From assembly GCF_023634065.1 (NCBI RefSeq), contig NZ_JALKCV010000015.1:62001-126000 (forward strand): DNA of 64,000 nucleotides, in the 5' to 3' direction. Position numbers and translations under genes: made by a program. How positions within the stretch are numbered: the stretch's first letter is position 1; the number at the start of each line of letters is the position of its first letter. The stretch is from Microbulbifer litoralis. GTDB lineage: Bacteria > Pseudomonadota > Gammaproteobacteria > Pseudomonadales > Cellvibrionaceae. The notes below the pieces were generated by a model. The model ran no database searches and was not told the DNA's origin. It saw only the letters and a program-made list of their open reading frames with translations. This document shows, piece after piece, positions 11,311-38,136 of the stretch.

Positions 11311-11344
11311 TGGGCGGTTGTTCGGGTGCGACTCGCGCTCCGGT

Positions 11345-12898
11345 TCAACCGCTGGTTGCAGAATCGACAAACAGCGTCAGTCGCTGTCCAGGCTGCAGGT
11401 AGCTGGACTTGCTGATCTTGTTCCAGCGCAGGATATCGCCGATATCCAGGCTGAATTTTCTCGCGATGCGGTACAGGGAGTCGCCGCTGCGCACGCGGTA
11501 GGAAAGCTTGCGGGTGGTGCGGCTGTTGCCGCCGCCGGAGGCGTAGGCGACCAGCTTGTGGCCCGGGCGCAGGGTGTCGCCGGGCGCCATGCTGTTCCAG
11601 CGGGCCAGCTGGCGCACGCTGACGCCCAGCGTGCGCGAGATCTCCCAGAGGGTATCGCCGGGGCGCACGGTATAATCGGTTCTGCGGCCACTGCCGGAGG
11701 CCTGGCCGCGTTTTACCCGCTGGTCCAGCGCGTAGGCATATTCCCCAGAGGGGCCGGAAGCGCTCGGGATCAGCAGTGTCTGGCCGGCGCGAATGTTATT
11801 GTTGCGCAACTTGTTGGTATCGCGGATGGCTGCCACCGTGGTCTCGTAGCGGCGGGCGATGGTGGACAGGGTGTCGCCGCGGGCGATTCTGTAGCGCTGC
11901 CAGGAAACCCGCTGGTCCCTGGGCAGTTTTGCCAGCGCGGCGATGAAGGTATCGCGTTTGTCCCGCGGGATCAGCAGGTCGTGGTCGCCGTTGGGATCGG
12001 TGGCCCAGCGGTTGAAGCCGGGGTTCAGCAGGTAGAGTTCCTCGGTTTCGATATCGGCCAATTCCGCCGCCTGGGCCAGGTCGATCTGGCTGCCCACATC
12101 CACTTCGGCATAGTAGGGTGCGTTGGGAATTTCGTGCAGCGGCACATGGTAGTAGTCCGGCCGCGAGACCACCTCGGCCAGTGCCAGCAACTGCGGCACA
12201 TAGCGCTCGGTCTCCCGCGGCAGGTCCAGGTCCCAGAAGCTGGTGCCCCGGCCGCGGCGCTGGTTGCGCTCGACCGCGCGTCGAACCCGGCCCTCGCCGG
12301 CATTGTAAGCGGCCAGTGCCAGTTCCCAGTCGCCGTCAAAATGCTCCGACAGGTAGGTGAAGTACTTGATTGCCGCGCGGGTGGATTCGTCCACGTCGCG
12401 GCGGCCGTCGTACCACCAGTTCTGGTGCAGCCCGAAGTGGCGGCCGGTGGCGGGAATGAACTGCCACATGCCGGAGGCGCGGGCGTGGGAATAGGCGAAC
12501 GGGTCGTAGGCGCTCTCCACGATCGGCAGCAGCGCCAGCTCCAGTGGCAGGTTGGCCTCTTCCAGCAACTCCGCTACGTGGAAGATATAGCGCCGCGAGC
12601 GTTCGGTAACCCGCGCCATATAACTTTCATTGCGGGAAAAGTAGGTGATGTAGTCCTCGACCTTGGGGTGGTTGGTATGGCGGTCGAGCCGGAAACCGCG
12701 GCGCAGGCGTTCCCAGATGTCCGTTGGTGGCAGGGCTTTTTCCGCCGGGCTCCGGACTGGATTGGCGGTGATGTCGGCCGCCAGGGCCCTGGAGGGCTCG
12801 GCGCTGGTGTCCTGCGGTGCCGCCGGCCTGTCGGCCATTTGCGCGCAGCCCCCCACCGCCGCTGCCAGTAGCGCAACGGCAAATTTTTTATGAACCAT
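11345..12898 (-). CDS. mltD: Membrane-bound lytic murein transglycosylase D
   Basis: A 517-aa outer-membrane lipoprotein that cleaves peptidoglycan to 1,6-anhydroMurNAc products. The signal peptide ends in VGGC with lipidated Cys18. The SLT domain contains the catalytic Glu128 in ALLPIVESAYDP, then SGMWQFIPATG and the AYNAGEGRVRR block near residue 200. Three LysM peptidoglycan-binding repeats follow at roughly 336-378, 409-453 and 467-512. The frame extends 47 codons upstream without signal-peptide character, so the start is placed at MVHKKF. The gene is convergent with ppiD. Confidence 0.95.
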   Translation of the reverse strand: MVHKKFAVALLAAAVGGCAQMADRPAAPQDTSAEPSRALAADITANPVRSPAEKALPPTDIWERLRRGFRLDRHTNHPKVEDYITYFSRNESYMARVTERSRRYIFHVAELLEEANLPLELALLPIVESAYDPFAYSHARASGMWQFIPATGRHFGLHQNWWYDGRRDVDESTRAAIKYFTYLSEHFDGDWELALAAYNAGEGRVRRAVERNQRRGRGTSFWDLDLPRETERYVPQLLALAEVVSRPDYYHVPLHEIPNAPYYAEVDVGSQIDLAQAAELADIETEELYLLNPGFNRWATDPNGDHDLLIPRDKRDTFIAALAKLPRDQRVSWQRYRIARGDTLSTIARRYETTVAAIRDTNKLRNNNIRAGQTLLIPSASGPSGEYAYALDQRVKRGQASGSGRRTDYTVRPGDTLWEISRTLGVSVRQLARWNSMAPGDTLRPGHKLVAYASGGGNSRTTRKLSYRVRSGDSLYRIARKFSLDIGDILRWNKISKSSYLQPGQRLTLFVDSATSG

Positions 12899-13111
12899 GC
12901 TGGTGTCCGCGAGTCGTTGTTCTGATTTACGGGTTCTGGGCACCACTTTGGAGTCGTACCTGAACTTTTCGTTGTAATTGTCTGATTCTAAAGAGGTGGA
13001 TAAGTTTCGGTCAATGACACCTGGATGGAATTTAGGCAAAAAGTCGGCGTATTCCCCCGCTTGGCGGTAGTTGTTTTTTTGTTCGCTGGGTGTTGTGATA
13101 GGGAGAGCTGG

Positions 13112-13885
13112 TTAAAAATTGTCCTTCCAGCGGCGCAGGCTTGCAAACACTTCCACCTCGTCGGAATTCTCCTTGCCCGCGCACTCGGCCGCGCGGCGGG
13201 CCACCGCGGGGACATGACAGCGCAGAAAGGGATTGGTGGCCAGTTCCTCGCCGACGGTCGATGGCAAACTGGGGCGATTGTCGGCGCGCAGGGCCTCCAC
13301 CTCGGCGATGCGGTTGTGCACGGCGTTATTCCCGGGCTCGGCTGCGGCGGCGAACTTGAGGTTGGCCAGGGTGTATTCATGGGCGCAGTAGACACGGGTT
13401 TCCGGCGGCAGGGCGCTGAGTTTGCCCAGGGACGCATACATCTGCGCCGGGGTGCCCTCGAACAGGCGACCGCAGCCGGCGGCAAACAGGGTGTCGCCAC
13501 AGAACAGGTGGATGTGGGCGCCGCTGCCCTCCGCCGGTTCGCGCAGCAGCAGTGCCAGGTGGTCCAGGGTGTGGCCGGGCACGTCGATCACCTCCGTCGG
13601 CATTCCCAGCACGCTGAGGCTGTCGCCGGCGGCGATGGGATGGGTTACGCCATCGATACTGCCGGGGCCATAGACCGGGCAGTCATAGCGTTTGCACAGC
13701 GCCGCGATACCGCCGGTGTGATCCGCGTGGTGATGGGTGATCAGGATTCCGTCGAGAGGCTTCCCGTCCAGCGCCTCGACAACCGGCGCCGCATCGCCGG
13801 GATCTACCACCCAGTGTTCGCCGCCGCGTTGCAGATGCCAGATATAGTTGTCATTGAAGGCGGGAATAGGGGAGATTGTGAGCAT
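13112..13885 (-). CDS. gloB: Hydroxyacylglutathione hydrolase (glyoxalase II)
   Basis: A 257-aa metallo-beta-lactamase-fold enzyme that hydrolyses S-lactoylglutathione to lactate and glutathione, detoxifying methylglyoxal. The binuclear metal motif THHHADH has His51, His53, Asp55 and His56; further ligands sit in VPGHTLDHL and FCGDTLF. The C-terminal helical domain is present, so length is normal. The frame is open 109 codons upstream, but only MLTISPIPAFNDNY gives the family N-terminus. It is divergent from the methyltransferase at 14184, as in Pseudomonas. Confidence 0.95.
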   Translation of the reverse strand: MLTISPIPAFNDNYIWHLQRGGEHWVVDPGDAAPVVEALDGKPLDGILITHHHADHTGGIAALCKRYDCPVYGPGSIDGVTHPIAAGDSLSVLGMPTEVIDVPGHTLDHLALLLREPAEGSGAHIHLFCGDTLFAAGCGRLFEGTPAQMYASLGKLSALPPETRVYCAHEYTLANLKFAAAAEPGNNAVHNRIAEVEALRADNRPSLPSTVGEELATNPFLRCHVPAVARRAAECAGKENSDEVEVFASLRRWKDNF

Positions 13886-14079
13886 TTTCCAGACCCGGTA
13901 AAGTGTACTGTCCCATTGCAAGCGCAGTTGCCCACCGGCTGCGGCAGCCGCTGGATACCCGGTGCATTTACGCAGGCACAGGGCCGTTGCGTCAAGACAA
14001 TTCAGCGCCGCAAACGGACCCCCGACAATCTGTCCGCCGGGAGTCCTCCAGACCGCAATTGCGTTTAGTATTGGGTCGG

Positions 14080-14094
14080 ACCCTACCATAGGGT
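14080..14094. promoter_or_regulatory. Small palindrome in the gloB/methyltransferase divergent region
   Basis: ACCCTA (14080-14085), CCA and TAGGGT (14089-14094) form a perfect palindrome about 90 bp before the methyltransferase start. An operator is possible but unproven. The remainder of 13886-14183 shows nothing else I can identify. Confidence 0.35.
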
Positions 14095-14183
14095 AACGGT
14101 GGGTTGTTGCGGCACTGCCAGTGTTGCCGGCAATAGCCCGGCAAGCCTCTTTTTCATGGACGACCAGTCGCGCGGGAGACAAT

Positions 14184-14972
14184 ATGGCCAAACAGTCCCT
14201 ATGGGGTCGCAAAAACGGGCCCCGCTCCCTGGCGGATTCCTGTCCGGGTCTGGCGCGCTGGTTCGATAGCGGCCTGGGCCGGGAAATTCTCAGCCAGCAA
14301 CTGGCGCTGGCGCAGCCGCTGGTGGAGCGCCTGTTCGGCTACCACCTGATGCAGGCCGGTGTTACCAGCGCGGTCGATTTCTCGGCCTGCAGTCGCATCA
14401 ATCACCGTTTCCGGCTCAGTCCCACGCCCGAGCAGGGCGGTGCCGCACTGGTGGAATTCGAGCAGTTGCCCCTGCCGTCGGAATCCATCGATGTGGTGCT
14501 GCTGCACCACCTGCTGGACTTCTCCAGCCACCCGCACCAGGTTCTGCGGGAAGCGGGTCGGGTGTTGATCCCCGGCGGCCACCTGGTGCTGATCGGCTTC
14601 AACCCATTCTCGCTGCTGGGATTGTCGCGGGTACTCTTCTCGGGCGGCGCGCACCAGCGCGGCAACCAGCTGCGGGCAGCGCGCCTTGCGGACTGGATGA
14701 ACCTGCTGGACCTGCAGGCCAGTACCCTTGAGCGGGGCTTCTTCCGCCTGCCCCTGCAGCAGCGCGAACTGCTGGCCAAGACCACCTGGATGGAGCGGCT
14801 CGGCGCCCGCTGGCGCTTGCCTTGCGGGGGCTTTTACATCATAGTCGCGCGCAAAGAGGTGGCGCGTATGCGCACCATCAAGCTGAATTGGCGCGGCGAC
14901 AGGAAGCCTGCGCTGACGGCGGTGCCATCGAGTCCGCGCGTGGCCGCGCGCCGCCGACACCGAAAACACTGA
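14184..14972 (+). CDS. SAM-dependent methyltransferase (Methyltransf_11 type)
   Basis: A 262-aa class I methyltransferase of unknown substrate. A degenerate SAM-binding motif ([13 protein letters not shown]) is followed by the acidic block [14 protein letters not shown], the post-motif [19 protein letters not shown] and a basic C-terminus. This gene family sits between gloB and rnhA in Pseudomonas too, which suggests a conserved but unassigned housekeeping role. The start ATG at 14184 has GGGAGA upstream. rnhA follows at 15008 in the same direction. Confidence 0.85.
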
Positions 14973-15007
14973 GGTCACACCGGGCCGGAAAAAGACAAGC
15001 GATCACG

Positions 15008-15445
15008 TTGAAAGAAGTCACCATCTACACCGACGGCGCCTGCCGCGGCAATCCCGGCCCGGGTGGCTGGGGAGCGCTGCTGGTTCACGGCGACCGCGAG
15101 CGCGAAATATTCGGCGGCGAAGGCCATACAACCAATAACCGTATGGAGTTGCTCGCGGCTATCAGGGCTCTGCAGGCCCTGAAACAGCATTGCCGGGTCG
15201 ATCTGCATACCGATTCCCAGTACCTGCGCCAGGGCATTACCAGCTGGATTCACGGCTGGAAAAAGAACGGTTGGAAGACATCCAGCAAGAAGCCGGTCAA
15301 GAACGCCGATCTCTGGCGTGAACTGGACGACAGCATCGCGGATCATGAAGTGCACTGGCACTGGGTAAAAGGGCACGCTGGTCACCCGGGCAACGAGCGT
15401 GCCGACCAGTTGGCCAACCGCGGCATCGACGAACTGGAGGATTGA
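15008..15445 (+). CDS. rnhA: Ribonuclease HI
   Basis: A 145-aa nuclease that removes RNA from RNA-DNA hybrids. The four catalytic carboxylates are Asp9 (YTDGACRGN), Glu47 (NNRMELLAA), Asp69 (LHTDSQY) and Asp133 (NERADQLA). The tryptophan-rich handle [12 protein letters not shown] is present. No ATG or GTG lies near the conserved N-terminus; the TTG at 15008 (giving [10 protein letters not shown]) is the best start although its Shine-Dalgarno is weak. The stop codon is separated from the dnaQ ATG by a single base, implying coupling. Confidence 0.93.
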
Positions 15446-15446
15446 G

Positions 15447-16172
15447 ATGCGCCAGGTAGTTCTGGATACCGAAACCACCGGCCTCGACCCGAAAAGCGGT
15501 CATCGCATTATCGAGATCGGTTGTGTGGAACTGGTCAATCGCAAGCTGACCGGCCGCCACTATCACCAGTATATAAACCCGGAGCGCGAGGTCGACGACG
15601 GTGCCATCGAGGTACACGGCATCACCAACGAATTCCTGGAGGACAAACCGGTATTCGCACAGGTCGCCGACGAGTTCATGGCGTTCTGTGAGGGCGCCGA
15701 GCTGGTGATCCACAACGCACCCTTCGACGTCGGCTTTATCAACTGGGAGCTGAAATGGCTCGGCAGCCCGCGCTGGCAGAATGTGGCCGCGCACTGCAGC
15801 GTGCTGGATACCCTGGCACTGGCGCGGGAAAAGCACCCGGGGCAGAAGAACAACCTGGACGTGCTGTGCAAGCGCTACTTCGTCGACAACTCCCAGCGCG
15901 ATCTCCACGGCGCCCTGCTGGATGCGGAAATCCTCGCCGACGTCTACCTGATGATGACCGGTGGCCAGACAGACCTGGCCCTGGGGCAGAACGACGATCA
16001 GCAGGCGGAAGGCGATGAGGGGAGTGAGCAGCATCTGGCGACGCCGGGTATTCGCCGCCTGTCACGGGAGCGGGCGCCACTGAGTGTGGTGGCGGCGTCG
16101 GCCGAGGAGACGCGGGCCCACGAGGAGATGCTGGTGGAGCTTGAGAAGTCGGCCGGCAAACACTTCTGGTAA
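15447..16172 (+). CDS. dnaQ: DNA polymerase III epsilon subunit, 3'-5' proofreading exonuclease
   Basis: A 241-aa DEDDh exonuclease that proofreads for the replicative polymerase. Exo I is VLDTETTGL (Asp7, Glu9), Exo II is HNAPFDVGF, and Exo III has the His and Asp in RDLHGALLDAE. The C-terminal tail carries the segment that binds the alpha subunit. The ATG is one base after the rnhA stop. The terminator at 16199-16231 follows. The rnhA-dnaQ pair is conserved in gammaproteobacteria, where it is often divergent, but co-directional here as in pseudomonads. Confidence 0.96.
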   Translation: MRQVVLDTETTGLDPKSGHRIIEIGCVELVNRKLTGRHYHQYINPEREVDDGAIEVHGITNEFLEDKPVFAQVADEFMAFCEGAELVIHNAPFDVGFINWELKWLGSPRWQNVAAHCSVLDTLALAREKHPGQKNNLDVLCKRYFVDNSQRDLHGALLDAEILADVYLMMTGGQTDLALGQNDDQQAEGDEGSEQHLATPGIRRLSRERAPLSVVAASAEETRAHEEMLVELEKSAGKHFW

Positions 16173-16198
16173 GCCGGTCGGCGAAAATATCCAGATAC

Positions 16199-16231
16199 AA
16201 AAAAGCGGACGCGAGAGCGTCCGCTTTTTTG
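16199..16231. terminator. Bidirectional terminator between dnaQ and nhaB
   Basis: gcggacgc pairs with gcgtccgc around gaga, flanked by A-run and T-run. It serves the convergent pair dnaQ and nhaB. Confidence 0.92.
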
Positions 16232-16244
16232 TTTGCGGCGGCAA

Positions 16245-17780
16245 TTAACCGACTATGAATATCACCGATACCAGTGCCACGGCGCTCAGCACCAGGGTAT
16301 AGGGCAGTGCCATCAGCACCATGCGCCCGTAGGACAGCCGGATCAGCGGCGCCAGTGCGGAAGTGAGCAGGAACAGGAAGGCGGCCTGGCCGTTGGGCGT
16401 CGCTACGCTCGGCAGGTTGGTGCCGGTATTGATGGCAATGGCGAGCTTGTCGAAATGTTCGCGGGTGATCTCGCCGGCGGTGAGTGCCGTCTTCACTTCA
16501 TTGATATACACCGTCGCCACAAATACGTTATCGCTGATCATCGACAGGATACCGTTGGCCAGGAACAGCATGCCGGGCTGTTGTTGGGGCTCCAGGCCGA
16601 GTACGAAATGCGTGACCGGTTCAAACAGGTGCTGCTCGTGAATCACCGCCACGACCGCGAAAAATACCACCAGCAGGGAGGTGAATGGCAGCGCTTCCTC
16701 GAAGGCGTGGCCGATGCGCGCCTCCTGCACCACGCCGTTGAATGAAGTCAGCAACACAATGATCATCAGGCCGATGATGCCGACTTCGGCTACGTGGAAG
16801 GCCAGTGACAATACCAGCAGGATGGCCACCAGCCCCTGTATCCAGAGTTCTGCGCTGTCACTGGCGGTGCGTTTCTTTTCCTGCTCGGTGGCGAAGTTCA
16901 CCAGAACCTCGCGCACTGCGCTCGGCAGCTTGGCACCGTAGCCGCAGATGCCGGTTTTTTCCAGTAGCACGCAGGTAAGCAGGCCGGCGGCGAAGGCGGG
17001 CATGGTGACCGGCGCCATATTGAGGAAGAATTCCACGAACTCCCAGCCCGCCTTTTCGGCAATCAGCAGGTTCTGCGGCTCGCCCACCAGGGTGCAGACA
17101 CCGCCCAGGGCGGTGCCCACGGCCCCGTGCATGATCAGGCTGCGGAGGAAGGCGCGGAACTGGTCCAGATCCTCGCGGTGGTATTCCACGATGTGTTCGT
17201 CATCGGCGTGGTCGTGATCGTGCTGGTGTGGCCGGTTGCTCGCCACGCGGTGGTAGACCGAATAAAAGCCGACCGCCACGGCGATCAGTACCGCGGTGAC
17301 CGTGAGCGCGTCGAGAAAGGCCGACAGGACTGCGGCCACGGCGCAAAACAGCAGTGACAGCAGGGCCTTCGAGCGCACGCCGATCAGGATCTTGGTAAAG
17401 GTGAACAGCAGCAGGCTCTTCATGAAGTAGATGCCGGCCACCATGAACATCAGCAGCAGAATGACCTCGATGTTTTCCGTCACCTCGTGATAGACCGCGT
17501 CGGCGCTCGTCATGCCGAGCAGTACCGCCTCGATGGCCAGCAGGCCGCCGGGCTGCAGCGGGTAGCACTTGAGTGCCATGGCGAGCGTGAAAATAAATTC
17601 GCCGACCAGTACCCAACCGGTGAAGAAAGGACCGGTGGCGTAGAGGAGAATCGGGTTGACGATCAGGAATACTGCGATTGTCAGCTTGTACCAGTCGGGT
17701 GCCTCGCCGAGAAAATTGTCGGTAAAGGCGCGGGCAAAGTGGCCGTCAGAGGTGGAGAGCGCACTGTTATAGGTATTCAT
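16245..17780 (-). CDS. nhaB: Na+/H+ antiporter NhaB
   Basis: A 511-aa inner-membrane protein, close to the 513 aa of E. coli NhaB, exporting Na+ in exchange for H+. About a dozen hydrophobic segments are visible, including [15 protein letters not shown] near the start and the conserved [32 protein letters not shown] and [14 protein letters not shown] regions. A His-rich loop ([12 protein letters not shown]) is in the middle. The frame opens 72 codons upstream, but [15 protein letters not shown] gives the family N-terminus. Marine salinity would make such an antiporter useful. Confidence 0.94.
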
Positions 17781-18286
17781 TTGTCGATTACTTCCTTGGT
17801 TACCCAAAGGGACCGGATTGACAGCCCCCCAGATGTCGCCGGCTGTCGACGCCGCCGCTGTGTTGGCTGGAGAGCGCGCGGCGCGACGTCGGTCTGCGCA
17901 AATCGTGCGCCTGGCGGCGGGAGCGGCAGATGGACGAAGCTGGAAAGCTACCCAATTTGCAGGAAAAATCAAGGGATAGAACGCGATCTGTACCAATCTG
18001 GAACCGGTTCCCGACCGCCCTGTGCAGGCCCCGCTGCCCGCGGAGGGCGCCGGCCCTCGGGGACGGGCGTCCGCAGTATTGCCGAAATCGGGCCGGTGGA
18101 GGTCGTTTTGTCGATTGTTCGATGGAAATTATTGCCGCAAAGGTGGACTCTTGCGCGGTTTGGTATAAATTGTTTGAACCCTCTCGCAGGTAGCCCCGAT
18201 TCAATCAGACCCACTCTTGACTGGTTGAGATTTGTACAAAACTCTAAAAATTTCTGTAATTTCTGTAGAGTGCAGCGGTGTAGGCA
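17781..18286. other. 506-bp non-coding divergent region between nhaB and fimL
   Basis: No supported gene. It must hold the nhaB and fimL promoters. A 9-bp tandem duplication (atttctgta at 18250-18258 and 18259-18267) lies 19 bp before the fimL GTG. A TATAAA at 18164-18169 lacks a good -35. TTGACT at 18217-18222 lacks a clear -10. I saw no riboswitch-like or repeat structure otherwise. Confidence 0.5.
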
Positions 18287-19984
18287 GTGACTGAATTGCG
18301 CGATATCAATATAACTTCCGTAAACTTGGTCCGGGATGAGCTGGTGACGGCCGTGGACGGCGCCGCTTCACATCTGGACCAGTTTGCGGCCGACAACAGT
18401 AACAAGGTGTCCCTGGAGCAGTGCATGGCCGCGCTGCGCCAGGTCAGCGGCGTGCTGCAGATGGTGCAGCTGCACGCCGGCGAGCTGCTGGCCCAGGAAA
18501 TGCTCAGCGCCCTGGCCGACCTGCAGGAAGAACGCCAGGAGGCCGCCGTCGACCTGATGGAGGGCCTGGGTACCGGTTTCTATGTACTGACCCGCTACCT
18601 GGATTTCGTGCAGAACCGGGGCACGTCGCGGCCCGAACTCCTGATTCCCTATATCAACAACCTGCGCGCGGCCCGCTCGCAACCGCCGGTACCGGAGAGC
18701 CACTTTTTCCGCTGTCGCCTGGATGCCAGCGTGCCGGGCGCGGTGTCCTCGGCGGTGATGTCCGAGGACCTGCGCAATTTCGTGCGGCGCTTCCGGCATA
18801 TGTACCAGGTGGGCCTGCTGGCACTGTTGCAGGGCAAGCCCTGCAAGCCGGCCTATACCATGATGGCGCGGGCCCTGCAGAGGATCGCCAGTATCTCCGC
18901 CGGTCGCCCCAACGGCAGGCTCTGGGCCGTGGCCGGCGCCGCCCTGGGCGGCATGGCATCGCGGGAAATGACCATCAACCGCTCGCGGGTAATGGTATTC
19001 AGCATGCTCGACCGGCGACTGCGCGCGCTGCAGAAAGAGGGCGATGCGGTACTCGACCAGCCCGCGCCGCCGGTATTGCTCAAGGAGAGCCTCTACTGGC
19101 TGGCCCTGTCCGCCCCCGGGGGGCAGGGCGCCGGGGTGCTGGAGGCCTTCTCCGTGGCCCCGCTGGGCTACAGCGAGACGGAACTGGAGCGCGAGCGGGC
19201 CAGCCTCGGCGGTCCCGGTGCCACCGCCATCAACGCCGTCGCCAGTGCCCTGGACGAGGAACTGGCCGGCGTGCGCCGCATGCTCGACGACGCGGAGTTG
19301 ATCGGCGCCGCCGGTCTCGACGAGGAGGACGGCCTCGCCGGTACCCTGCGCCGCATTGCCAGTACCCTGCAACTGCTGAATTTCAAGCGCGTCGGAGAGG
19401 GGCTGCGGGGGGCGATAGACGAATACTGCAGCTGCGCCGGCGCCGGTGGCAGCGCCGCGGAAGCGGCGCTGCAGAAACTGACCGGCCAGGTGCTGATGGT
19501 GGACAGTACGGTTCGCGCGCTGCGCCAGAGTTCCAGTATCGACGTGGACGAATTCGGCCACGCCGACCTGGCGCTGGAGCACAGCCAGCTGGCGGAGGCT
19601 GAGGTGGCGGTGCTCAAGGAGGCGGAATCCGGCCTGTCCCTGATCAAGCGCGCCCTCGGTTCCTACGCCGAGTCCAACTACGACCACGGCCATATCCGCA
19701 ATGTGGCCACCACGCTCAACTCGGTGCGCGGCGGTATGGTGGTGCTGAACCTGCGCCACGCCGCGGCGGTGGTCGAGCGGCTGGTGGATTTTGTCGAGGC
19801 GGTGGTCGACCAGCGCGATGCGGCACCGCAGATCGAGCAGTCACTGGAGATATTTGCCGATGCGATCATCAGCCTCGAGTACTATCTCGGCGAAGTGAAA
19901 ATGCACCGCAAGGTGGATGTGCAATCTCTGAACCTGGCGGTGGAAAGCCTCGATGCGCTCGGCTATCCGGTCGAGGTTGCCTGA
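18287..19984 (+). CDS. fimL: FimL-like scaffold protein (ChpA N-terminal homologue)
   Basis: A 565-aa soluble protein that resembles P. aeruginosa FimL: SVNLVRDELVTAVDGAASHLDQF at the start, the LELAQEML-like GELLAQEMLSAL, and the RPELLIPYINNLRAAR block. It looks like Hpt-type helical modules without phosphorylatable histidine motifs. In P. aeruginosa FimL promotes type IV pilus assembly, twitching and cAMP signalling through the Chp system. Identification is strengthened by nhaB-fimL-nudC order, the same as PA1820-PA1823. The GTG start has a weak Shine-Dalgarno. No pilus gene is in this window. Confidence 0.82.
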   Translation: MTELRDINITSVNLVRDELVTAVDGAASHLDQFAADNSNKVSLEQCMAALRQVSGVLQMVQLHAGELLAQEMLSALADLQEERQEAAVDLMEGLGTGFYVLTRYLDFVQNRGTSRPELLIPYINNLRAARSQPPVPESHFFRCRLDASVPGAVSSAVMSEDLRNFVRRFRHMYQVGLLALLQGKPCKPAYTMMARALQRIASISAGRPNGRLWAVAGAALGGMASREMTINRSRVMVFSMLDRRLRALQKEGDAVLDQPAPPVLLKESLYWLALSAPGGQGAGVLEAFSVAPLGYSETELERERASLGGPGATAINAVASALDEELAGVRRMLDDAELIGAAGLDEEDGLAGTLRRIASTLQLLNFKRVGEGLRGAIDEYCSCAGAGGSAAEAALQKLTGQVLMVDSTVRALRQSSSIDVDEFGHADLALEHSQLAEAEVAVLKEAESGLSLIKRALGSYAESNYDHGHIRNVATTLNSVRGGMVVLNLRHAAAVVERLVDFVEAVVDQRDAAPQIEQSLEIFADAIISLEYYLGEVKMHRKVDVQSLNLAVESLDALGYPVEVA

Positions 19985-30134: not shown

Positions 30135-30554
30135 TCAGCCACGCCGGCCGGCCAGCTGGAACAGCCCCATACCGGCCAGCATGGCGGCGGTAAAGACAAT
30201 GGCCTTCAGCGCGCCGGCACCGCTGGCGACGATGGCCGGCCCCGGGCAGAAGCCCGCCAGGCCCCAGCCGATACCGAACAGCAGGCTGCCGATCACCAGC
30301 GGCCGGTCGATATCGCGCCGCCTGGGCAGCTGCATCGGCGCGCCCAGCAGGGACAGCGTGCGCCGCCGGGTCAGTTGGAACACCGGCAGGCCCACGGCGA
30401 TGGCGCCGGCCATCACCAGTCCCAGGGACGGATCCCAGGCGCCGAACAGGTCGAGGAACGCCAGCACCTTGTGCGGGTTGGCCATGCCGGACAGCAGCAG
30501 GCCCAGGCCGAACACCAGTCCGGCGGCGAAGGCGGAGAGATCATACTTTTTCAT
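30135..30554 (-). CDS. YeeE/YedE-family half-transporter, second component
   Basis: A 139-aa membrane protein with about four hydrophobic segments and the family motif GFCPGPAIVASG. It pairs with the 144-aa protein just upstream (4-bp gap); together they make one YeeE/YedE-type unit, a family that includes the thiosulfate permease TsuA. The frame is open for 97 codons upstream in a wrong-looking, Cys/Pro-rich sequence, so the start is set at MKKYDLSAFAAGL. Confidence 0.85.
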   Translation of the reverse strand: MKKYDLSAFAAGLVFGLGLLLSGMANPHKVLAFLDLFGAWDPSLGLVMAGAIAVGLPVFQLTRRRTLSLLGAPMQLPRRRDIDRPLVIGSLLFGIGWGLAGFCPGPAIVASGAGALKAIVFTAAMLAGMGLFQLAGRRG

Positions 30555-30558
30555 CGCA

Positions 30559-30993
30559 TCAGGCTCCCGGCAGATGGCGGACGACATACACGGTGGCGAA
30601 ACCGGCGCCCATAAACAGCAGCGTGGCGACCAGGGAGCGCGGCGACAGCCGCGACAGGCCGCAGACGCCGTGGCCGCTGGTACAGCCGGAGCCGTAGCGG
30701 GTGCCGATGCCCACCAGCAACCCGGCGGCGACCAGCAGGGGGTAGCCGGCGTCGATGCGGATCGGCGGCAGCGCCGCGAACAGGCCCCACAGCCCCGGTG
30801 CCAGCAGCAGTCCGGCGACAAACGCCAGCCGCCAGCCGGTTTCACCCGCTGTGGGCTTCAGCAGGCCGCCGACAATACCGGAGATACCGGCGATACGGCC
30901 GTTGGCCAACAGCAGCAGGGCCGTCGCCAGTCCGATCAGTGCGCCGCCGGCGAGGGCGGACAGCGGCGTGAAGGCATTCCAGTCTATGTTCAT
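30559..30993 (-). CDS. YeeE/YedE-family half-transporter, first component
   Basis: A 144-aa membrane protein with the cysteine motif GSGCTSGHGVCGLSRLS, the signature expected to contact the sulfur substrate. It starts 9 bp after the ArsR-type regulator stop and ends 4 bp before its partner. Such split pairs are often found beside persulfide dioxygenase genes regulated by BigR/SqrR proteins, which is exactly the context here. Likely substrate: thiosulfate or a related reduced sulfur species. Confidence 0.87.
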   Translation of the reverse strand: MNIDWNAFTPLSALAGGALIGLATALLLLANGRIAGISGIVGGLLKPTAGETGWRLAFVAGLLLAPGLWGLFAALPPIRIDAGYPLLVAAGLLVGIGTRYGSGCTSGHGVCGLSRLSPRSLVATLLFMGAGFATVYVVRHLPGA

Positions 30994-31002
30994 GTTTGGC
31001 AG

Positions 31003-31317
31003 TTACTTCGCACAGTAGAGTTGATACAGGGTCTGCAGCAGCGCCAGTATCCGCCGGTCTGCGACCCGGTAGTAGATGCGTTTGCCTTCCCTGCGGGTGG
31101 ATACCAGCCCCTCGCGGCGCAACACGCCCAGCTGCTGCGAAAGACTCGGCTGGCGAATCTGCAGGCGCTCTTCCAGGTCGCCCACGCACAACTCCTCCTG
31201 GCTCAACTGGCACAGCAGCAGCAGGCGGTCGCGGTTGCCCAGGGAGCGCAGCGCGGCTGCCGCCTGGTCGGCCGAGGCGAGCATCTTGTCGAGGTCGATA
31301 TCCGAAGTGTCGGGCAT
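31003..31317 (-). CDS. ArsR-family regulator of the BigR/SqrR persulfide-sensing type
   Basis: A 104-aa winged-helix repressor. The recognition helix is in RQPSLSQQLGVLRREG. Two cysteines, Cys44 (ELCVGDL) and Cys102 (LYCAK at the C-terminus), sit where BigR, SqrR and YgaV have the pair that forms a tri- or tetrasulfide link and releases DNA; Cys36 is extra. The gene heads the minus-strand operon (regulator, YeeE/YedE pair, SulP), divergent from the dioxygenase. The palindrome 31360-31380 is its likely operator. Confidence 0.88.
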   Translation of the reverse strand: MPDTSDIDLDKMLASADQAAAALRSLGNRDRLLLLCQLSQEELCVGDLEERLQIRQPSLSQQLGVLRREGLVSTRREGKRIYYRVADRRILALLQTLYQLYCAK

Positions 31318-31350
31318 GGCGGTGGCAGTTCAAATGATTTACAGATTTAT

Positions 31351-31378
31351 ATTATATTGATTTGTATAGTGTATACAA
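31351..31378 (-). promoter_or_regulatory. Promoter of the ArsR-type regulator operon
   Basis: On the minus strand, TTGTAT (31378-31373), 16 bp, then a perfect TATAAT (31356-31351). The -35 lies inside the palindrome 31360-31380. Confidence 0.75.
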
Positions 31379-31385
31379 ATATAGT
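31357..31385 (+). promoter_or_regulatory. Promoter of the persulfide dioxygenase gene
   Basis: TTGATT (31357-31362), 17 bp and TATAGT (31380-31385). The spacer contains the palindrome 31360-31380. The dioxygenase ATG is 30 bp further on. Confidence 0.75.
31360..31380. promoter_or_regulatory. Candidate BigR/SqrR-type operator
   Basis: atttgtata (31360-31368), gtg, tatacaaat (31372-31380): a perfect 9-bp inverted repeat in an AT-rich island, overlapping both divergent promoters, next to the regulator gene. Confidence 0.75.
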
Positions 31386-31415
31386 GTTGCCAATACCGAA
31401 ATCGGGAGACGAATC

Positions 31416-32294
31416 ATGTCCGCAAGCAAGCCTGTCACCCAGGTGCAGCCCTTTCTCGATCCGGACACCGAAACCTGGAGCTATGTGGTCTACGACCATC
31501 CGGGTGGTTCCGCCGCGGTGGTGGATCCGGTGCTGGATTTCGATGCCCCGTCGGGTCATACCGGCACCGGCGGCGCCAAGGCCATTATCGAATTCCTGCA
31601 CCGGGAGAAGCTGACCGTCGAGTGGGTACTGGAGACCCACGCCCACGCGGATCACCTGTCGGCGGCGCCCTTTGTGCGCCAGCAGGTCGGTGGCAGTATT
31701 GCCATCGGCGACCGGATCACGGAGGTGCAGGCCATTTTTCGCGAGGTGTTCAACCTGGAAAAGGCGTTCCTGGTCGATGGCAGCCAGTTCGACCACCTGT
31801 TCCGCGACGGCGATACCTTCCGCGTCGGTGCACTGGAGGCGCGTGTCATCTATGCGCCGGGCCACACACCGGCGGATATGGCCTGGCTGATCGGCGATGC
31901 GCTGTTTGTCGGCGACACCCTGTTTATGCCGGACGTGGGCAGCGCCCGCTGCGATTTTCCCGGCGGCGATGCGGCCACCCTGTACCGCTCGGTGCAGAAG
32001 CTGCTGGAACTGCCGGAAGAGACACGTATGTTCATGTGTCACGATTACCCGCCGGCCGGTGGCCGCAGGCACCGCTGCGAAACCACGGTGGGCGAACAGA
32101 AACGCAATAACATCCATCTGCACCAGAGTGTCAGCGAGGCGGAGTTCGTCGCCATGCGCAATAAGCGCGACGCAACGCTGCCGATGCCGCGGCTGATCAT
32201 TCCGTCCATCCAGGTCAATATTCGCGCGGGCCAGATGCCGCCGGCGGAAGACAACGGCACCGTCTATTTGAAAGTGCCGATCAACAAACTCTGA
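31416..32294 (+). CDS. Persulfide dioxygenase-like MBL-fold enzyme (Blh/ETHE1 family)
   Basis: A 292-aa protein expected to oxidise glutathione persulfide to sulfite with one iron. The MBL motif THAHADH gives His75, His77, Asp79 and His80; the second half has YAPGHTPADMAWL and FVGDTLFMPDVGSARCDFPGG, characteristic of this branch, and FMCHDY. The ATG at 31416 has CGGGAG upstream; the frame opens 18 codons before, inside the promoter. No sulfide:quinone oxidoreductase gene is in the window. Regulation by the adjacent ArsR-type protein is inferred. Confidence 0.9.
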   Translation: MSASKPVTQVQPFLDPDTETWSYVVYDHPGGSAAVVDPVLDFDAPSGHTGTGGAKAIIEFLHREKLTVEWVLETHAHADHLSAAPFVRQQVGGSIAIGDRITEVQAIFREVFNLEKAFLVDGSQFDHLFRDGDTFRVGALEARVIYAPGHTPADMAWLIGDALFVGDTLFMPDVGSARCDFPGGDAATLYRSVQKLLELPEETRMFMCHDYPPAGGRRHRCETTVGEQKRNNIHLHQSVSEAEFVAMRNKRDATLPMPRLIIPSIQVNIRAGQMPPAEDNGTVYLKVPINKL

Positions 32295-32318
32295 TCGCGC
32301 ATAGACCGGATAGTTACA

Positions 32319-32412
32319 GGCGTAGCCCGGATGGAGTGCAGCGGATCCGGGACAGGGGGTCGGCACCACAATCCCGGATTCCGGCGCTGCGCGCCTCCAT
32401 CCGGGCTACGCC
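32319..32412. repeat. Extragenic palindrome, family A, full copy
   Basis: 18-bp arms ggcgtagcccggatggag (32319-32336) and its exact reverse complement (32395-32412) enclose two smaller tccggga/tcccgga arms. Related copies are at 25981-26017 and 63028-63087. Confidence 0.85.
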
Positions 32413-32472
32413 CTTTCATCGCGGTAAACTCCTGACTTGAGCGACTAAAGCGTGCGAAAAGCTGAGGTAAAT

Positions 32473-32880
32473 ATGCATATCAAACAGCTCGACGAGCAGG
32501 TCAGTGTCTCGGCGCAGTTCAGCTGCGACGCCATGGCCGAACTGGCCGCATCCGGTGTGCAGGTGATTGTCTGCAACCGTCCCGAGGGAGAGACCGAAGA
32601 CCAGCCGACGTATGCGGCAATGGAAAGTGCCGCGGCGGAGCAGGGCATGGCGTTCGTGGCCATCCCCTTCGCCCGCATGACCGCGGATCACTGCCGGCAG
32701 TTCGGCGAACTGCTCGACAGCGGCAAAAAGATCCACGCCTTCTGCCGCACCGGCAACCGCTCGTGTAACGTCTGGGCCGGTGCCCGGCTGTTGGCCGGCG
32801 CGGACGGGAAATCGCTGCTGAAAAGCGCCGGCGGCGCCGGTTTCGATATCAGCGGCGTGCTGGTGGCGATGGACCACTAG
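32473..32880 (+). CDS. DUF442 / TIGR01244 family phosphatase-like or sulfurtransferase-like protein
   Basis: A 135-aa cytoplasmic protein with the P-loop-like HAFCRTGNRS near residue 97, as in the DUF442 domain that is fused to the persulfide dioxygenase in Xylella Blh. Here it is a separate gene 178 bp downstream of the dioxygenase. The start ATG at 32473 has GAGG upstream; a GTG 7 codons earlier is possible. Probably handles sulfane sulfur with the dioxygenase, though activity is not established for the family. Its stop is 3 bp from the convergent PQQ-protein gene. Confidence 0.82.
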   Translation: MHIKQLDEQVSVSAQFSCDAMAELAASGVQVIVCNRPEGETEDQPTYAAMESAAAEQGMAFVAIPFARMTADHCRQFGELLDSGKKIHAFCRTGNRSCNVWAGARLLAGADGKSLLKSAGGAGFDISGVLVAMDH

Positions 32881-32883
32881 CGT

Positions 32884-33987
32884 TTATTGCAGTGCGTAGA
32901 TATAGCCATCGATGGTGCCGACGTAGAGCCGCTCGCCGTAGACGGTAATACTGGTGACCGTATCGCTGAGCGGGCTGGAGCGCCACAGCAGCTCGCCGCT
33001 GCGGGGCGCCAGTGCACAGATCTGCTCGCCACAGGCGGCGTAGAGCCGCTCGGCGGTGGCGGCTACGGAGCGGAAGATGCGCTCGCCGAAGGACCAGCGG
33101 AGTTCGCCGCTGCGCGCATCCACCGCCTGCAGCGGTCCCAGGCCGCTGATATACACCAGCCCGTGGGCGACCGCCGGCGGCTGGTCGATGCGCATACCGG
33201 TGTCGTAAGTCCAGTTGATGTCGCCGCTGCTGGCGTCGATGGCCGACAGCTTCTGTCCCCAGCCGCCCACGAACACCTGGCCATCGCGTACCACCGGCGC
33301 GGTGGTCAGCCACTGCCCGTCGCCGGCCGGGGTGCGCCAGCGCTGCTCGCCGGTTTCCGCGTCCAGCGCGTAGAGGCGGCTGTCGAATGAGGCGGCGAAG
33401 AGGGTGTCGCCGGCCAGTGTGACGCCGGCGCCGACTGCCCTCCCGGCTGCGAATTCCCAGGCCGTATCCCCGCTGGCCCTGTCCAGCGCATGCACCTTTT
33501 TGTCGAAACCACCGAAATAGACGCGATCGCTGTCGATCGCGGCGGGGCCCTGCGGTGTCTTGTCGAAGTGCTCGCGCCACAACAGCTTGCCGGACGAGCG
33601 GTCCAGGGCGTAGAAGCCGCGATCCTCGCTGGCGACATAGACCCGCTCCCGGTCGACGGCGACGCTGCCGCGGATATTGCCTGTGGTCTTGAAGCGCCAG
33701 CGCCGCTCGCCACTGTTCACATCCACGGCGTAGACGGAGTCGTCGGTGGTGCCGACAAACAGGGTGTCGCCGGCGATGACCGGTGTCTCTGTCAGCACCC
33801 CGAGGGTCAGGAACCGCCAAAGCTCCCGCGGCTTGTCCGCCGGCCCGTCGCCGGCGAAGAGTCCGGTGCGCTGGGCGTTGCCTCGGTACTCCACCGGTGG
33901 ACCGCCGTCGCTTTGCGGCCCGCAACCGGCGAGCATCGCCGCCAGCAGCAGGGGCGCGATACGACCGCCGCGCGCAGATTTTGCCAT
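32884..33987 (-). CDS. PQQ-like beta-propeller lipoprotein
   Basis: A 367-aa outer- or inner-membrane lipoprotein: signal peptide ending LAGC with Cys22, then about seven to eight propeller repeats of the form VYALDRxSGxxxW. It resembles BamB in fold, but bamB normally sits beside hisS and der, so this is more likely a paralogue with another partner. The start ATG shares one base with the stop of the MORN gene (TGATG), which implies translational coupling. It is the last gene of the three-gene envelope operon. Confidence 0.85.
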   Translation of the reverse strand: MAKSARGGRIAPLLLAAMLAGCGPQSDGGPPVEYRGNAQRTGLFAGDGPADKPRELWRFLTLGVLTETPVIAGDTLFVGTTDDSVYAVDVNSGERRWRFKTTGNIRGSVAVDRERVYVASEDRGFYALDRSSGKLLWREHFDKTPQGPAAIDSDRVYFGGFDKKVHALDRASGDTAWEFAAGRAVGAGVTLAGDTLFAASFDSRLYALDAETGEQRWRTPAGDGQWLTTAPVVRDGQVFVGGWGQKLSAIDASSGDINWTYDTGMRIDQPPAVAHGLVYISGLGPLQAVDARSGELRWSFGERIFRSVAATAERLYAACGEQICALAPRSGELLWRSSPLSDTVTSITVYGERLYVGTIDGYIYALQ

Positions 33988-35888
33988 CACTGTTCTTCCG
34001 CCCCGCTGTCGTCGCGTTCCAGTGAGCGCACATAGGTGCCGTTGTCATATTCCTCGGCCATATAGCGCTCGCCGTTGGACAGGAAATACTCGGTGACGCC
34101 GTGCTGTCTGCCATTGCGGAAGGGTTCGACGGCGACCAGGGTACCGTCTCTGTATTTCTCGTGCCGCCCGTGTCTTTTGCCGTCCTTGTAGGGGGTCACT
34201 TCCCGCACCGAACCGTTGCGGGCGAAGATGTAATTCTTGCCGACGGGGACGCCGTGCTCGAAGCGTAAGCGGGCCATTTCATAGCCCTCGGGGGAACGTG
34301 CCAGCCACAGGCCGTGGCGCTTGCCGTCGACATATTCGCCCTCGAAGAGGCCCTTCGCGTACTCGTCGTACTCCTGCCAGGTGCCGACCTTTACTCCGTG
34401 GCGGTATTCGCCGCGGCTGGTCAGCCTGCCGTCCCGTTCGCGCTTGACCTGTTCGCCGTGCAGCTCGCCGGCGACATAGTGCGACCGCTCCAGCACCAGG
34501 CCGTCGTCCAGTTCCCGGCGGCGCTCGCCGTGTCGCCGGCCCCGGCTGTCGTAGGACTCGTAGACCGTGGTGCCGTATTCCCGCCTGACCCAGTCGCCGA
34601 CCTGTTTACCGCGCTCGTACTGGCCGTGGGAGAGCACTTTGCCATCCCTGTCGACTTCGCGGTAATCGCCCACCGCCAGGCCGTGCTGGTAGCGGGTGAT
34701 ATCGTAGCTGCCGATGCCGCCCGGCTGCGGGTTGCCGCTGATCTGGAGGCCGTGCTTGTCGCCATCGACGGTCTCGCGGCGGTAGCTGGGCTTGTCGCCG
34801 CGGCCGCGATAGCGCTCTTCCAGAATCCAGCGCCGGTCCACGCTGTAGATGGTGCGCCGGGACAGGCTGCCGTCGTCCCTGTAGGATTCCTTGCGCTCCG
34901 CCGGGCCGTAGGTACTGTCCTCGACAACGAAAAGCTGCGTCAGCCCGCCCTGGCGGTTGTATTCGCGCCGCTCGGTCAGCTCGCCTTCTTTATTGCGGTG
35001 CTCGTAGCTTTCCGGCGAACCGTCCTGGTAGTAGTAATGCGCCTCCCCGCGCTTGCGGCCGTCCACATAGTGGAGTGCCTTCACCAGCACGCCATCTTCC
35101 CAGCGTTTGGCCGTACCGTGGCGTTTGTTCGCCCGGTAGTAGGTTTCGCGGGTGAGCTGTCCCTCGTGCCACTCCCTGACAGCGCCGAGCCGCTCGTCGT
35201 CGACGTAGTTAGCCTCGAATATTTTCTGGCCGTCTCTGGAGAAGCGTTGCACCAGGCCGTCGTATTTGCCGTGCTTGTAGTGAACGCGCTTGTAGATGAC
35301 GCCATCATCGCGGAAGTATTCCTGGACACCGTGCTTCTCGCCGTCGACGATCGAATAGCGCAGTTTCACCTGGCCGTCTTCGTTGTAGCAGATGCGCTCG
35401 CCGTCCTGCTCCTCGCCATCGATATAGGGGACCTCGATCTCCAGCTGGCCGTCGGCGTAGAAGTGCCGCTTGCTGCCGTGGAGGACGCCGTTGCGAAACT
35501 GGCTGACGGTGTAGTGACCATTTTCCCGGTAGCGGGTGAATTCGCCCTGCCAGCGGCGGTTTTCGTTGAGGGTGCCCCGGAGCTTGACGCTGCCGTTCGG
35601 GTAGTAGCTGGTGTATTCGCCGACCTGGTGTGCGCTGGCCAGGTCGGGGCCGTCCAGTTGCGTTTTGACGGCGGGTACCGCCTCCTCGCCGCTCTCGGCG
35701 AAATAGAGCGTCACTCTCCAGAGTTCGCCGTCTCGTGTGGGGGGCGCCGCATAGTAGTAGGCACTGTCGCTGTCGGCGTCCACCAGCTCGAAATTGCGAT
35801 CCAGCCACAGCCGCGGCTGTTTCGCGGCGTACGATGCGGACGGCAGCAGGGCCAACAGAATCCAGAAAAGCGTTGTTTGGGCTCGCAT
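33987..35888 (-). CDS. Exported MORN-variant repeat protein
   Basis: A 633-aa protein: signal peptide (residues 1-24, ending SYAA) followed almost entirely by some 20 tandem units of about 22-24 residues with the pattern YxxGxxHGxxxxYxxDG (for example DGEKHGVQEYFRDDG, DGKRHGRHEKYRDG), related to the MORN_2/YwqK type. Such repeats form long beta-sheet rods. The first possible start is GTG at 35897, but that codon abuts GGGAGG; the ATG at 35888 has this Shine-Dalgarno at 8 nt. Middle gene of the envelope operon, coupled to the next. Function unknown. Confidence 0.85.
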   Translation of the reverse strand: MRAQTTLFWILLALLPSASYAAKQPRLWLDRNFELVDADSDSAYYYAAPPTRDGELWRVTLYFAESGEEAVPAVKTQLDGPDLASAHQVGEYTSYYPNGSVKLRGTLNENRRWQGEFTRYRENGHYTVSQFRNGVLHGSKRHFYADGQLEIEVPYIDGEEQDGERICYNEDGQVKLRYSIVDGEKHGVQEYFRDDGVIYKRVHYKHGKYDGLVQRFSRDGQKIFEANYVDDERLGAVREWHEGQLTRETYYRANKRHGTAKRWEDGVLVKALHYVDGRKRGEAHYYYQDGSPESYEHRNKEGELTERREYNRQGGLTQLFVVEDSTYGPAERKESYRDDGSLSRRTIYSVDRRWILEERYRGRGDKPSYRRETVDGDKHGLQISGNPQPGGIGSYDITRYQHGLAVGDYREVDRDGKVLSHGQYERGKQVGDWVRREYGTTVYESYDSRGRRHGERRRELDDGLVLERSHYVAGELHGEQVKRERDGRLTSRGEYRHGVKVGTWQEYDEYAKGLFEGEYVDGKRHGLWLARSPEGYEMARLRFEHGVPVGKNYIFARNGSVREVTPYKDGKRHGRHEKYRDGTLVAVEPFRNGRQHGVTEYFLSNGERYMAEEYDNGTYVRSLERDDSGAEEQ

Positions 35889-35901
35889 GCTGTTCACCTC
35901 C

Positions 35902-38136
35902 CTACGGCAGCGGTTGGAAGTCGGTGGACCAGAGCCGCTCTTCGGGCTCGCCGGTAAATACCCGTTGTTCGACGCGCTGTACCTCGCCGGCCAGTCTCAA
36001 CAGACCGTCGCGGGTCAGGTAGTCGCCGACCGTGGATGCGCTGAGTGAAACTTCGCTGTTCGGTGGTACCGGGGCGAGGGGCCAACCCTGTGTGCCGATA
36101 AAGCGATAGCGCTGCAGGAAATCGGCGATGGGCTGGTGCGGGTCGAACTGGTCCCCCAACTGTGTCGGCTCTACCAGCCAGGGCCTGTCGCCCAGGGAAA
36201 TCGGGACCGCCCGCCACTCGCTGCGGCCCTTGCAGCGGATGGCGTGCTCGATTTCCAGGCCGTAGAAATAGTGGCGGATGCCGTCTTCGGTACTGAGTTG
36301 CCACTGCTGTGTAGTGCCCAGCTGGTTATTGTTGGTCGCGTTTTCGGTCAGTCGGCGCCAGACCAGTGGGTGGCCATCGATATCCGGCGCTTCGACCACA
36401 GTGGGCTGGCAGCTGCCCACCAGAGAGGCGGGCAGTTCCAGTGCCAGCTGGTTGTTCTGTGGCTGTGGCAGCTCGAGTTCGCCGAGGGCGATATCGGCGG
36501 TATCGTCGCCGTCGGCATTCTCATACAAGGGCACTTCGGTGGTGGGCGGCAGGCTCAGGTCGTTGCGCATCGCCGCTTCTGTCACGAAGCGCAGCTGGTA
36601 ATCGAAGGGTTGGCGATCGCTGTCGCTGAGCAGGTAGAGCGTCAGTTCGTCCGGTACCTGTTCGCTGAACACCATTCGGATATCCCCGAGGGCGTAGTGG
36701 CCCAGTGCCACCAGCCGCAGAATCTCGCGCTCTTCCGCGCTGAGCCACTCGCCGTCGGGCTGGATGCCGCGCGCCTCTTCGAGGCCGTGAATGCGGGAGC
36801 TGAAGTGGTGTGTGCCCGTGTGCTGCAGACGCAGCCGGAATTCGCGCGGGTTGTCGGTGGGAATTGCCTCGGCGCGGGCGCCGTGCAGTGTCACTTCGGT
36901 GGCCTTTTCTCCATCCAATGGCAGGGTCACGGCTTCCACATCGAGCGCCTGGTAGTGCCCGGTTGCGGTAATCTGGCCGATTTTCTCCAACTGCTCGCCG
37001 GCGTTGTCCCAGCCCAGGGGGACATACCGCGCCATGGTACTGTGCTTGCCGGCATCGGGGTCGAAAAAGTCGTAGCGCGACATGCGGAACAGTTCCAGGG
37101 GCAGGGGCTCGCCGTCGGCGCCCTGCAACTGCAGGTCCTCCAGGTCAAAGCGACCCGGGAAGGCGTTGCGACCCAGGTCGTGCCCCACTTGCAGGAGCAG
37201 CCAGTCCTGGGTCTGCACGAGGCTGCCGACCGGTACCGGCAGCACCTGTTCCGCAGTGGCGGTGTCGGCGACCTTGTTCGCGGTCGGCGCCGGCTCGAAG
37301 GGGCGGCCCTGCTCACCGCCCAGGCGCATATTCAGGAGCCAGCTGCCCAGTACCGAGGGCGAGTCCTCGGGCAACACCAGCAATTGCTGGCGGCTGGAAC
37401 CCCCGATGTCATCCTGCTCGATGTGATTCTCGCTGATCAGCGCCAGGCGTTTCAGCCAGCCGCTGTCCCGCTCCAGCACCATGGTGCCCTGTAAGCGCAT
37501 CGCTTTCCCGTGCGCTTCCAGCCTGGTGACCACTTCGCTGTCGGTCACCCGCTCGACTGTCAATTGCAGCTGGTCGGCTCCACGGAAATTGGAGAGGGTC
37601 ACCGTCTTGCCCTCAATGGCTGGCACAGCCAGTTGCGGGACGCCGGGAGGGCTCATCTGCTTTTCCAGGTTGTCCACCACCGGGCCGCCAGCATCTTCCA
37701 GTACGGTCTGCCACAGGGCATCGTTGCTGCTGGCGAAGTGTTCGATGGTGCCGGTTTCGGTATCGATCTCCAGCTCGAAACCGGCGGACATCAGCTCGCG
37801 CAACACGTTGCCGGCGCGACTGTCGTCGGCTCGGGCATTGGAAAAATTAGTGCGGCCGTCGAGGGAAAACCTGGTGTAAGTGGGTTCTATCGCCAGTTTC
37901 AGGGTGCGGCCGGTGCCGAGTACCTTGTAGCGAAGCACGGTATCGCTATCCACGGTCAGGCTGCGCTCGAGGGACGGGGCCCCCACGCGGATGCGGGAAC
38001 GGCTGTGGACCTGGTAACTGCGCGTGTCGCCCGTCGACGGAGAGAACCGGACTGTGCCCGGAGGCGCGTCGGAACAGGCGGTAAGGAAAGCCAACGTGGC
38101 CAATACGGTGGGGAAAAGGTAGCGGGCGCTTTTCAT
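35902..38136 (-). CDS. Large lipoprotein of unknown function
   Basis: A 744-aa protein with a lipoprotein signal (LTAC, Cys21) and no family I recognise. The N-terminal third reads as beta-rich with SLTVDSDTVLRYKVLG and FSLDGRTNFSNARADDSRA; the middle has a long acidic segment with CQPTVVEAPDIDG; a C-terminal part contains IRHYFYGLEIEHAIRCKGRSEWRAVPI. Two cysteines (in GSCQP and IRCKG) could form a disulfide. It opens a three-gene operon with a 13-bp gap to the MORN gene. All three products are exported, so they likely act together. Confidence 0.8.
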   Translation of the reverse strand: MKSARYLFPTVLATLAFLTACSDAPPGTVRFSPSTGDTRSYQVHSRSRIRVGAPSLERSLTVDSDTVLRYKVLGTGRTLKLAIEPTYTRFSLDGRTNFSNARADDSRAGNVLRELMSAGFELEIDTETGTIEHFASSNDALWQTVLEDAGGPVVDNLEKQMSPPGVPQLAVPAIEGKTVTLSNFRGADQLQLTVERVTDSEVVTRLEAHGKAMRLQGTMVLERDSGWLKRLALISENHIEQDDIGGSSRQQLLVLPEDSPSVLGSWLLNMRLGGEQGRPFEPAPTANKVADTATAEQVLPVPVGSLVQTQDWLLLQVGHDLGRNAFPGRFDLEDLQLQGADGEPLPLELFRMSRYDFFDPDAGKHSTMARYVPLGWDNAGEQLEKIGQITATGHYQALDVEAVTLPLDGEKATEVTLHGARAEAIPTDNPREFRLRLQHTGTHHFSSRIHGLEEARGIQPDGEWLSAEEREILRLVALGHYALGDIRMVFSEQVPDELTLYLLSDSDRQPFDYQLRFVTEAAMRNDLSLPPTTEVPLYENADGDDTADIALGELELPQPQNNQLALELPASLVGSCQPTVVEAPDIDGHPLVWRRLTENATNNNQLGTTQQWQLSTEDGIRHYFYGLEIEHAIRCKGRSEWRAVPISLGDRPWLVEPTQLGDQFDPHQPIADFLQRYRFIGTQGWPLAPVPPNSEVSLSASTVGDYLTRDGLLRLAGEVQRVEQRVFTGEPEERLWSTDFQPLP

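Follow-up and report, generated by a model that had tools for sequence, protein, structure and literature searches.

An accessory, apparently mobile envelope module of a lipoprotein family and an exported MORN_2 rod protein, with a possible protective or modifying role at the cell envelope

Three adjacent genes of Microbulbifer litoralis, designated A, B and C, were found to be inherited together, and the A-B pair is the core of the set. The pair represents an accessory and apparently mobile envelope module, whose role may lie in the protection or modification of the envelope. The preferred reading, to which we give rather less than even odds, is that of a mobile, probably periplasm-facing A-B complex, most likely protective, i.e. 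conferring immunity or resistance against envelope-acting toxins. The window, that is the whole stretch of 64,000 nucleotides analysed (contig NZ_JALKCV010000015.1, positions 62,001 to 126,000), contains A, B and C as three real genes, minus-strand open reading frames (ORFs) lying across positions 38136-32884, with the following features:

35902..38136, minus strand: gene A, a 744-aa lipoprotein of an unnamed family (lipobox LTA-C21; Pfam and NCBIfam searches)
37372..38073, minus strand: N-terminal domain of A, residues 22-255, a predicted half-barrel (low-confidence model)
35905..36579, minus strand: C-terminal domain of A, about residues 520-744, limits approximate (missing in 11 short relatives)
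33987..35888, minus strand: gene B, a 633-aa Sec-exported MORN_2 rod protein (Pfam; signal peptide by eye)
34029..35561, minus strand: MORN_2-type repeat array of B, limits approximate (Pfam and motif search)
32884..33987, minus strand: gene C, a 367-aa PQQ/BamB-type beta-propeller lipoprotein (lipobox LAG-C; PQQ_2)

The gap between A and B is 13 nt when counted from the B start ATG at 35888, which is preceded by GGAGGTG, and 4 nt if an in-frame GTG is the start; the stop codon of B and the ATG of C have one base in common (33987). This spacing makes the co-expression of the three genes, as proposed in the original prediction, very likely, and the export signals which it had assigned to all three products were recovered, A and C carrying a lipobox and B a signal peptide recognised by eye. 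The scan of the operon region for sigma-70 promoters gave 0 sites against 1.0 in shuffled sequences, and 10 terminator-like sites, mostly within genes, were counted against 3.9 expected. Gene C is met by a convergent BLH-type phosphatase gene (32452-32880), and the two ends are 3 nt apart (32878-32886), so that a separate terminator has no room. The latter gene and a metallo-beta-lactamase gene account for the two Pfam matches within the cluster at 30135-32880, whose remaining members we take to be transporter-like ORFs and a small ArsR-like regulator ORF; the cluster presumably resembles one for sulfide/persulfide detoxification. No recognised effector adjoined the operon in the window when the neighbours were checked by Pfam. 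A known anti-phage defence system was considered and rejected, as PADLOC returned 0 families for A, B and C up to E 0.1. The literature search gave no paper on the A-B-C gene set, which is also absent from the excerpts of PMC7970981 and PMC12419801.

The three genes were detected in the same three of 96 genomes, that of the window included (G000, G016 and G039), with cut-offs of E <= 0.001 for A (single-sequence query), E <= 1e-30 for B and E <= 1e-60 for C. Such a distribution makes them a unit beyond chance, and the homologues proved to be linked, not scattered independently across genomes, in line with the original prediction. G016, which belongs to the same genus, carries the trio in the window's own neighbourhood with flanking genes common to both, and G039 carries it at another chromosomal site, next to what look to us like LysE-type and selenium-related genes. 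The identities of A, B and C between the window and G016 are 65, 68 and 76%, against 74-89% for five flanking genes, a pattern compatible with transfer of the unit or with its rapid divergence; between G016 and G039 they are 87, 97 and 83%.

In wider surveys gene A turned up in 4 of 369 genomes sampled from the class and in 7 of 398 from the phylum, its own genome being included in both and one further genome being common to the two samples; these counts are lower bounds, as two candidates were scored per genome. The phylum survey also gave a weak match in G632 (18.8 bits). The frequencies in three families, each sampled because its centre genome has A, were 9/197, 7/17 and 3/5. Moreover, A occurs in nine plasmid records, eight of them with a coverage of at least 80%, including those of Martelella, Rhodovulum, Shewanella oneidensis MR-1 and Plesiomonas; six of the nine, all except H3, H5 and H7, were examined. 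A phage or viral origin of A was rejected, since the phage collection contained no match and none of the 536 pattern matches on viral contigs was confirmed. The A-B pair is rare, scattered over Proteobacteria and seemingly spread by horizontal transfer.

The coupling of A and B was followed in 37 A loci, the window counted and some originating from the same genome or genus, which comprise 53 A genes, two of them split into two pieces. The C-terminal domain of A is tied to the presence of B. Gene B lies directly downstream of 28 of the 42 full-length A genes (27 by script, and L009 by annotation and alignment) and of none of the 11 short ones, which lack the last ~225 residues, i.e. the C-terminal domain, and end at profile position 522-536 of 751. 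The Fisher p of 5.8e-5 for this difference overstates the evidence because the loci are related and the copies not independent; nevertheless, the difference suggests that the C-terminal domain works with B. In the arrays, the gene after a short A is often a full-length one with a B. Full-length A genes with no B at the locus include those of L015, L031, L052, L085 and L086. A and B also co-vary, their distances being correlated with r 0.97 (Mantel p 1e-4) in a set of 20 chosen pairs and with r 0.81 among the pairs with A identity below 50%, and vertical descent alone could account for much of this correlation.

Tandem A arrays occur in L029, L052, L078, L079 and L080, and tandem B genes in L045-L049. 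L052 holds five A copies without B, one of which is cut by the locus edge; these diverged A-family lipoproteins (7600-19891), with a small ORF in between that we assume to be an IS200-type transposase, have the appearance of an expanding array. DUF805 follows B in three of the four alphaproteobacterial plasmids examined (L009, L012 and L013, where it was Pfam-tested in L013; not L008). On the Shewanella megaplasmid (L010, 8170-10497) a 775-aa MORN_2-repeat protein is encoded upstream of A-B, near an annotated Sel1-repeat gene.

Protein B has a MORN_2 rod preceded by a short region, conserved among its relatives, at the N-terminus. Its match to MORN_2 (PF07661; E 1.9e-19) scored 67.9 bits, above the gathering cut-off of 29.6. 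Pfam scores three MORN_2 stretches individually and a loose motif search gave 19 MORN matches, some overlapping, so that the earlier estimate of about 20 repeats is roughly right. The sole NCBIfam match of B was the LIC20035 adhesin (NF033566), at 79.9 bits against a cut-off of 250.

Neither Pfam nor NCBIfam contained a match to protein A at E values up to 1, which agrees with its first description as a member of no recognisable family, and the best Pfam matches of ten aligned members, the window included, were scattered (E 0.017-0.02). No sequence similarity of A to the LolA or LLTP families was detected. A clear lipobox was present in 26 of 55 A pieces by a crude test, which overlooks some ORFs with a wrongly assigned start. 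As judged by eye, the signals of the alphaproteobacterial proteins are plain and Sec-like, and a helix is apparent at the N-terminus of others; each inspected member carries a lipobox, a signal of the Sec type or a hydrophobic stretch at the N-terminus. Export thus looks to be kept across the relatives and the type of anchor not, which argues against a strict outer-membrane assembly role.

The full-length model of A, built from three input sequences, was unusable as a whole (pLDDT 52.5), and the N-terminal domain modelled alone was of low confidence (pLDDT 59.6, pTM 0.52). Ranks 1-5 of the Foldseek search with the latter model were all MTP, lipovitellin or ApoB (E 2e-7 to 3.5e-5), MTP being the best (E 2e-7, prob 1.00, to be read against the low pLDDT), with TM-scores of the top matches of 0.45-0.48 by query length; LolA came next (E 2.4e-3). 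VIA-align gave Z of 8-9 to ApoB and lipovitellin, and its list also contained LolA and the RseB homologue MucB; porin and autotransporter barrels, i.e. unrelated outer-membrane barrels, were tied at the same Z, and the lipid-cavity fold of A is therefore a lead only. On this low-confidence model the N-terminal domain may resemble the lipid-cavity proteins LLTP and LolA.

The search for type VI secretion genes by tblastn revealed Hcp, VgrG or DUF4123 sequence in two of the 37 loci, those of Plesiomonas (L011) and Halomonas (L007). The other 35 gave no match to the single Plesiomonas queries, by which distant homologues could be missed. The same two loci, and only these, contain a family of hydrophobic proteins that neighbours VasX. 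In Plesiomonas the order is hcp-vgrG-DUF4123-vasX, four related hydrophobic proteins and, after 237 nt, A-B. The Halomonas locus starts with a 41-aa vgrG fragment (71% identity), and its five hydrophobic copies are of the same family as those of Plesiomonas (hhalign probability 96%, E 2.6e-9); the array is separated from A-B-C by ~4 kb, in which four ORFs lie, and two of these gave sub-threshold DUF6708 matches. The five tandem copies of ~240 aa (L007, 184-6248), behind the vgrG fragment, are interspersed with repeats of a ~134-aa fragment, an arrangement which resembles displaced toxin-tail and immunity cassettes. The fragment had no match in the plasmids, and neither the Halomonas locus nor the window matched the Plesiomonas VasX in tblastn, so that a toxin-tail nature is a guess.

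An in-frame stop splits the Plesiomonas A (L011, 11146-13419) not far from where the C-terminal domain begins; the natural short copies end close to this point. Near A-B-C of Microbulbifer halophilus (L006, 4715-6246) a PG_binding_1 gene overlaps the gene of a small exported protein, and the two resemble an effector-immunity pair. A SUKH-1 gene is located ~4 kb upstream in L014. The neighbours of most of the 37 loci look like ordinary chromosomal genes, as judged by eye in a partial scan.

At the level of whole genomes, VgrG was present in 7 of 9 genomes with A and 120 of 188 without A in one family (p 0.50), in 3 of 7 and 1 of 10 in a second (p 0.25), and in 6 of 11 genomes with A of a further set. 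Where a listed VgrG site of a genome with A shared the contig of A, the only case in which a distance can be judged, it was never closer to A than 190 kb. A general accessory role of A in type VI secretion was rejected, because VgrG did not track A in the two families, was present in 6 of the 11 further genomes with A and was not near A at any of these listed sites. An immunity gene can sit apart from its own secretion system, and the VgrG and neighbour data are thus weak evidence either way.

Gene C has a PQQ_2 match in Pfam (E 5.1e-52). Its scores against the BamB models TIGR03300 (170.1 bits, cut-off 285.2) and NF008351 (120, cut-off 423) and the PQQ protein of the PLuB system NF040673 (24.7, cut-off 250) all fell below the cut-offs. 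C, the BamB-like propeller of the original prediction, is a PQQ_2 propeller lipoprotein and not BamB, and a BamB paralogue was rejected by the NCBIfam cut-offs. C is present in 4 of the 37 loci, three of Microbulbifer and one of Halomonas, and is a lineage-specific third gene, a local addition to A-B.

These data bear directly on the first interpretation of the operon as a fixed three-gene periplasmic scaffold or surface-assembly machine, which now appears very improbable. The order A-B-C is kept in the three Microbulbifer genomes and the Halomonas; however, C is missing from most loci, where DUF805 or no fixed gene occupies its position, several loci have A but no B, and the anchor of A is variable. 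The core is of two genes, for which a scaffold role as such is still conceivable. The sporadic distribution, the tandem A and the duplicated B fit an accessory or protective module better. A surface adhesin or receptor complex, in which A-B(-C) would expose the rod at the cell surface, with the arrays as antigenic or ligand variants, is unlikely: the lipoproteins, the diversified arrays and the adhesin MORN family as sole NCBIfam match of B speak for it, but that match is far under its cut-off, several versions of A without a lipobox look inner-membrane anchored or soluble, and no surface-export partner was identified.

Ranked next after protection, and overlapping with it, is the handling of envelope lipid, lipoprotein or glycan, with A carrying or masking a lipid, B spanning the periplasm and the benefit being niche fitness instead of immunity. 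This reading is a possible one, of about one chance in three at best. It draws on the lipid-transfer proteins and LolA at the top of the Foldseek list, on LolA and MucB in the VIA list and on the export or membrane signals of the inspected A members; it is opposed by the weakness of the model and its TM-scores, by the lack of a sequence match to these families, and by the sporadic occurrence and the tandem arrays, beside which no biosynthetic gene was seen to recur. The protective reading draws on the co-inheritance of the genes, the co-variation of A and B, the tie of the C-terminal domain to B, the sporadic occurrence, the two sites of the trio in Microbulbifer, the tandem genes, the type VI sequences and hydrophobic arrays of L011 and L007, the SUKH-1 gene of L014 and the Foldseek ranks. 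Against it stand the operon of the window with no recognised effector beside it, the 35 loci without a type VI match, the lack of correlation between VgrG and A, the ordinary-looking neighbours and the weak structure model; moreover, A is large for an immunity protein and the immunity-like array of Halomonas is 4 kb off instead of adjoining A.

If the protective reading holds, A and B would form a mobile two-component complex, most likely facing the periplasm. We infer a physical complex, lipid binding by A and a protective role in the following way: A would be held at a membrane by lipidation in the case of the window, and shows an apparent N-terminal helix or a plain Sec-like signal in other lineages; its N-terminal half-barrel may hold a lipid; the extended MORN rod of B would dock on its C-terminal domain; and C would be a lineage-specific propeller joined to the operon. 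The most likely task would be immunity or resistance against envelope-acting toxins that competitors deliver. One could speculate further on an undescribed, horizontally spread envelope-protection system, in which a membrane-held, lipid-binding A with a lipovitellin/LolA-like domain recruits B via the C-terminal domain, both shield or repair the envelope against the toxins of competitors, the arrays diversify specificity, and the third genes (propeller, DUF805) are lineage-specific partners; in this complete form the scheme is improbable.

Whatever its function, A is a family of ~750 residues without a match in the searched libraries and with a recurrent partner gene, and the link between its C-terminal domain and B opens the interaction to a direct test. 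If the pair serves immunity or envelope protection, it would be a new class in interbacterial defence, and would supply a defined partner as well as a testable role for the exported bacterial MORN_2 proteins, which often receive the automatic name 'YwqK antitoxin'.

Comparison with known systems showed partial similarities. C shares the PQQ-type propeller and the lipoprotein nature with BamB and other PQQ_2 propeller lipoproteins; unlike BamB, it is encoded with A-B and scores 170 bits where 285 are required. B shares MORN_2 repeats with the YwqK-like proteins (PF07661, PGAP 'toxin-antitoxin system YwqK family antitoxin'), and the Martelella B is annotated under this name, which rests on automatic annotation. 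In contrast to these proteins, B is exported, over 600 aa long here and encoded as a pair with A, and in the window no gene beside it was recognised as a toxin partner. The likeness of A to LolA and the LLTP proteins (lipovitellin, MTP, ApoB) lies in the half-barrel predicted for its N-terminal domain by a low-confidence model, whereas A has no sequence match to them and possesses additional middle and C-terminal domains. As for the VasX-type effector-immunity islands of type VI secretion, whose immunity role is itself deduced from the position behind vasX, 35 of the 37 A loci differ in having no such neighbour, but in Plesiomonas such an array immediately precedes A-B, and in Halomonas one of the same family, accompanied by a vgrG fragment, lies ~4 kb ahead of it.
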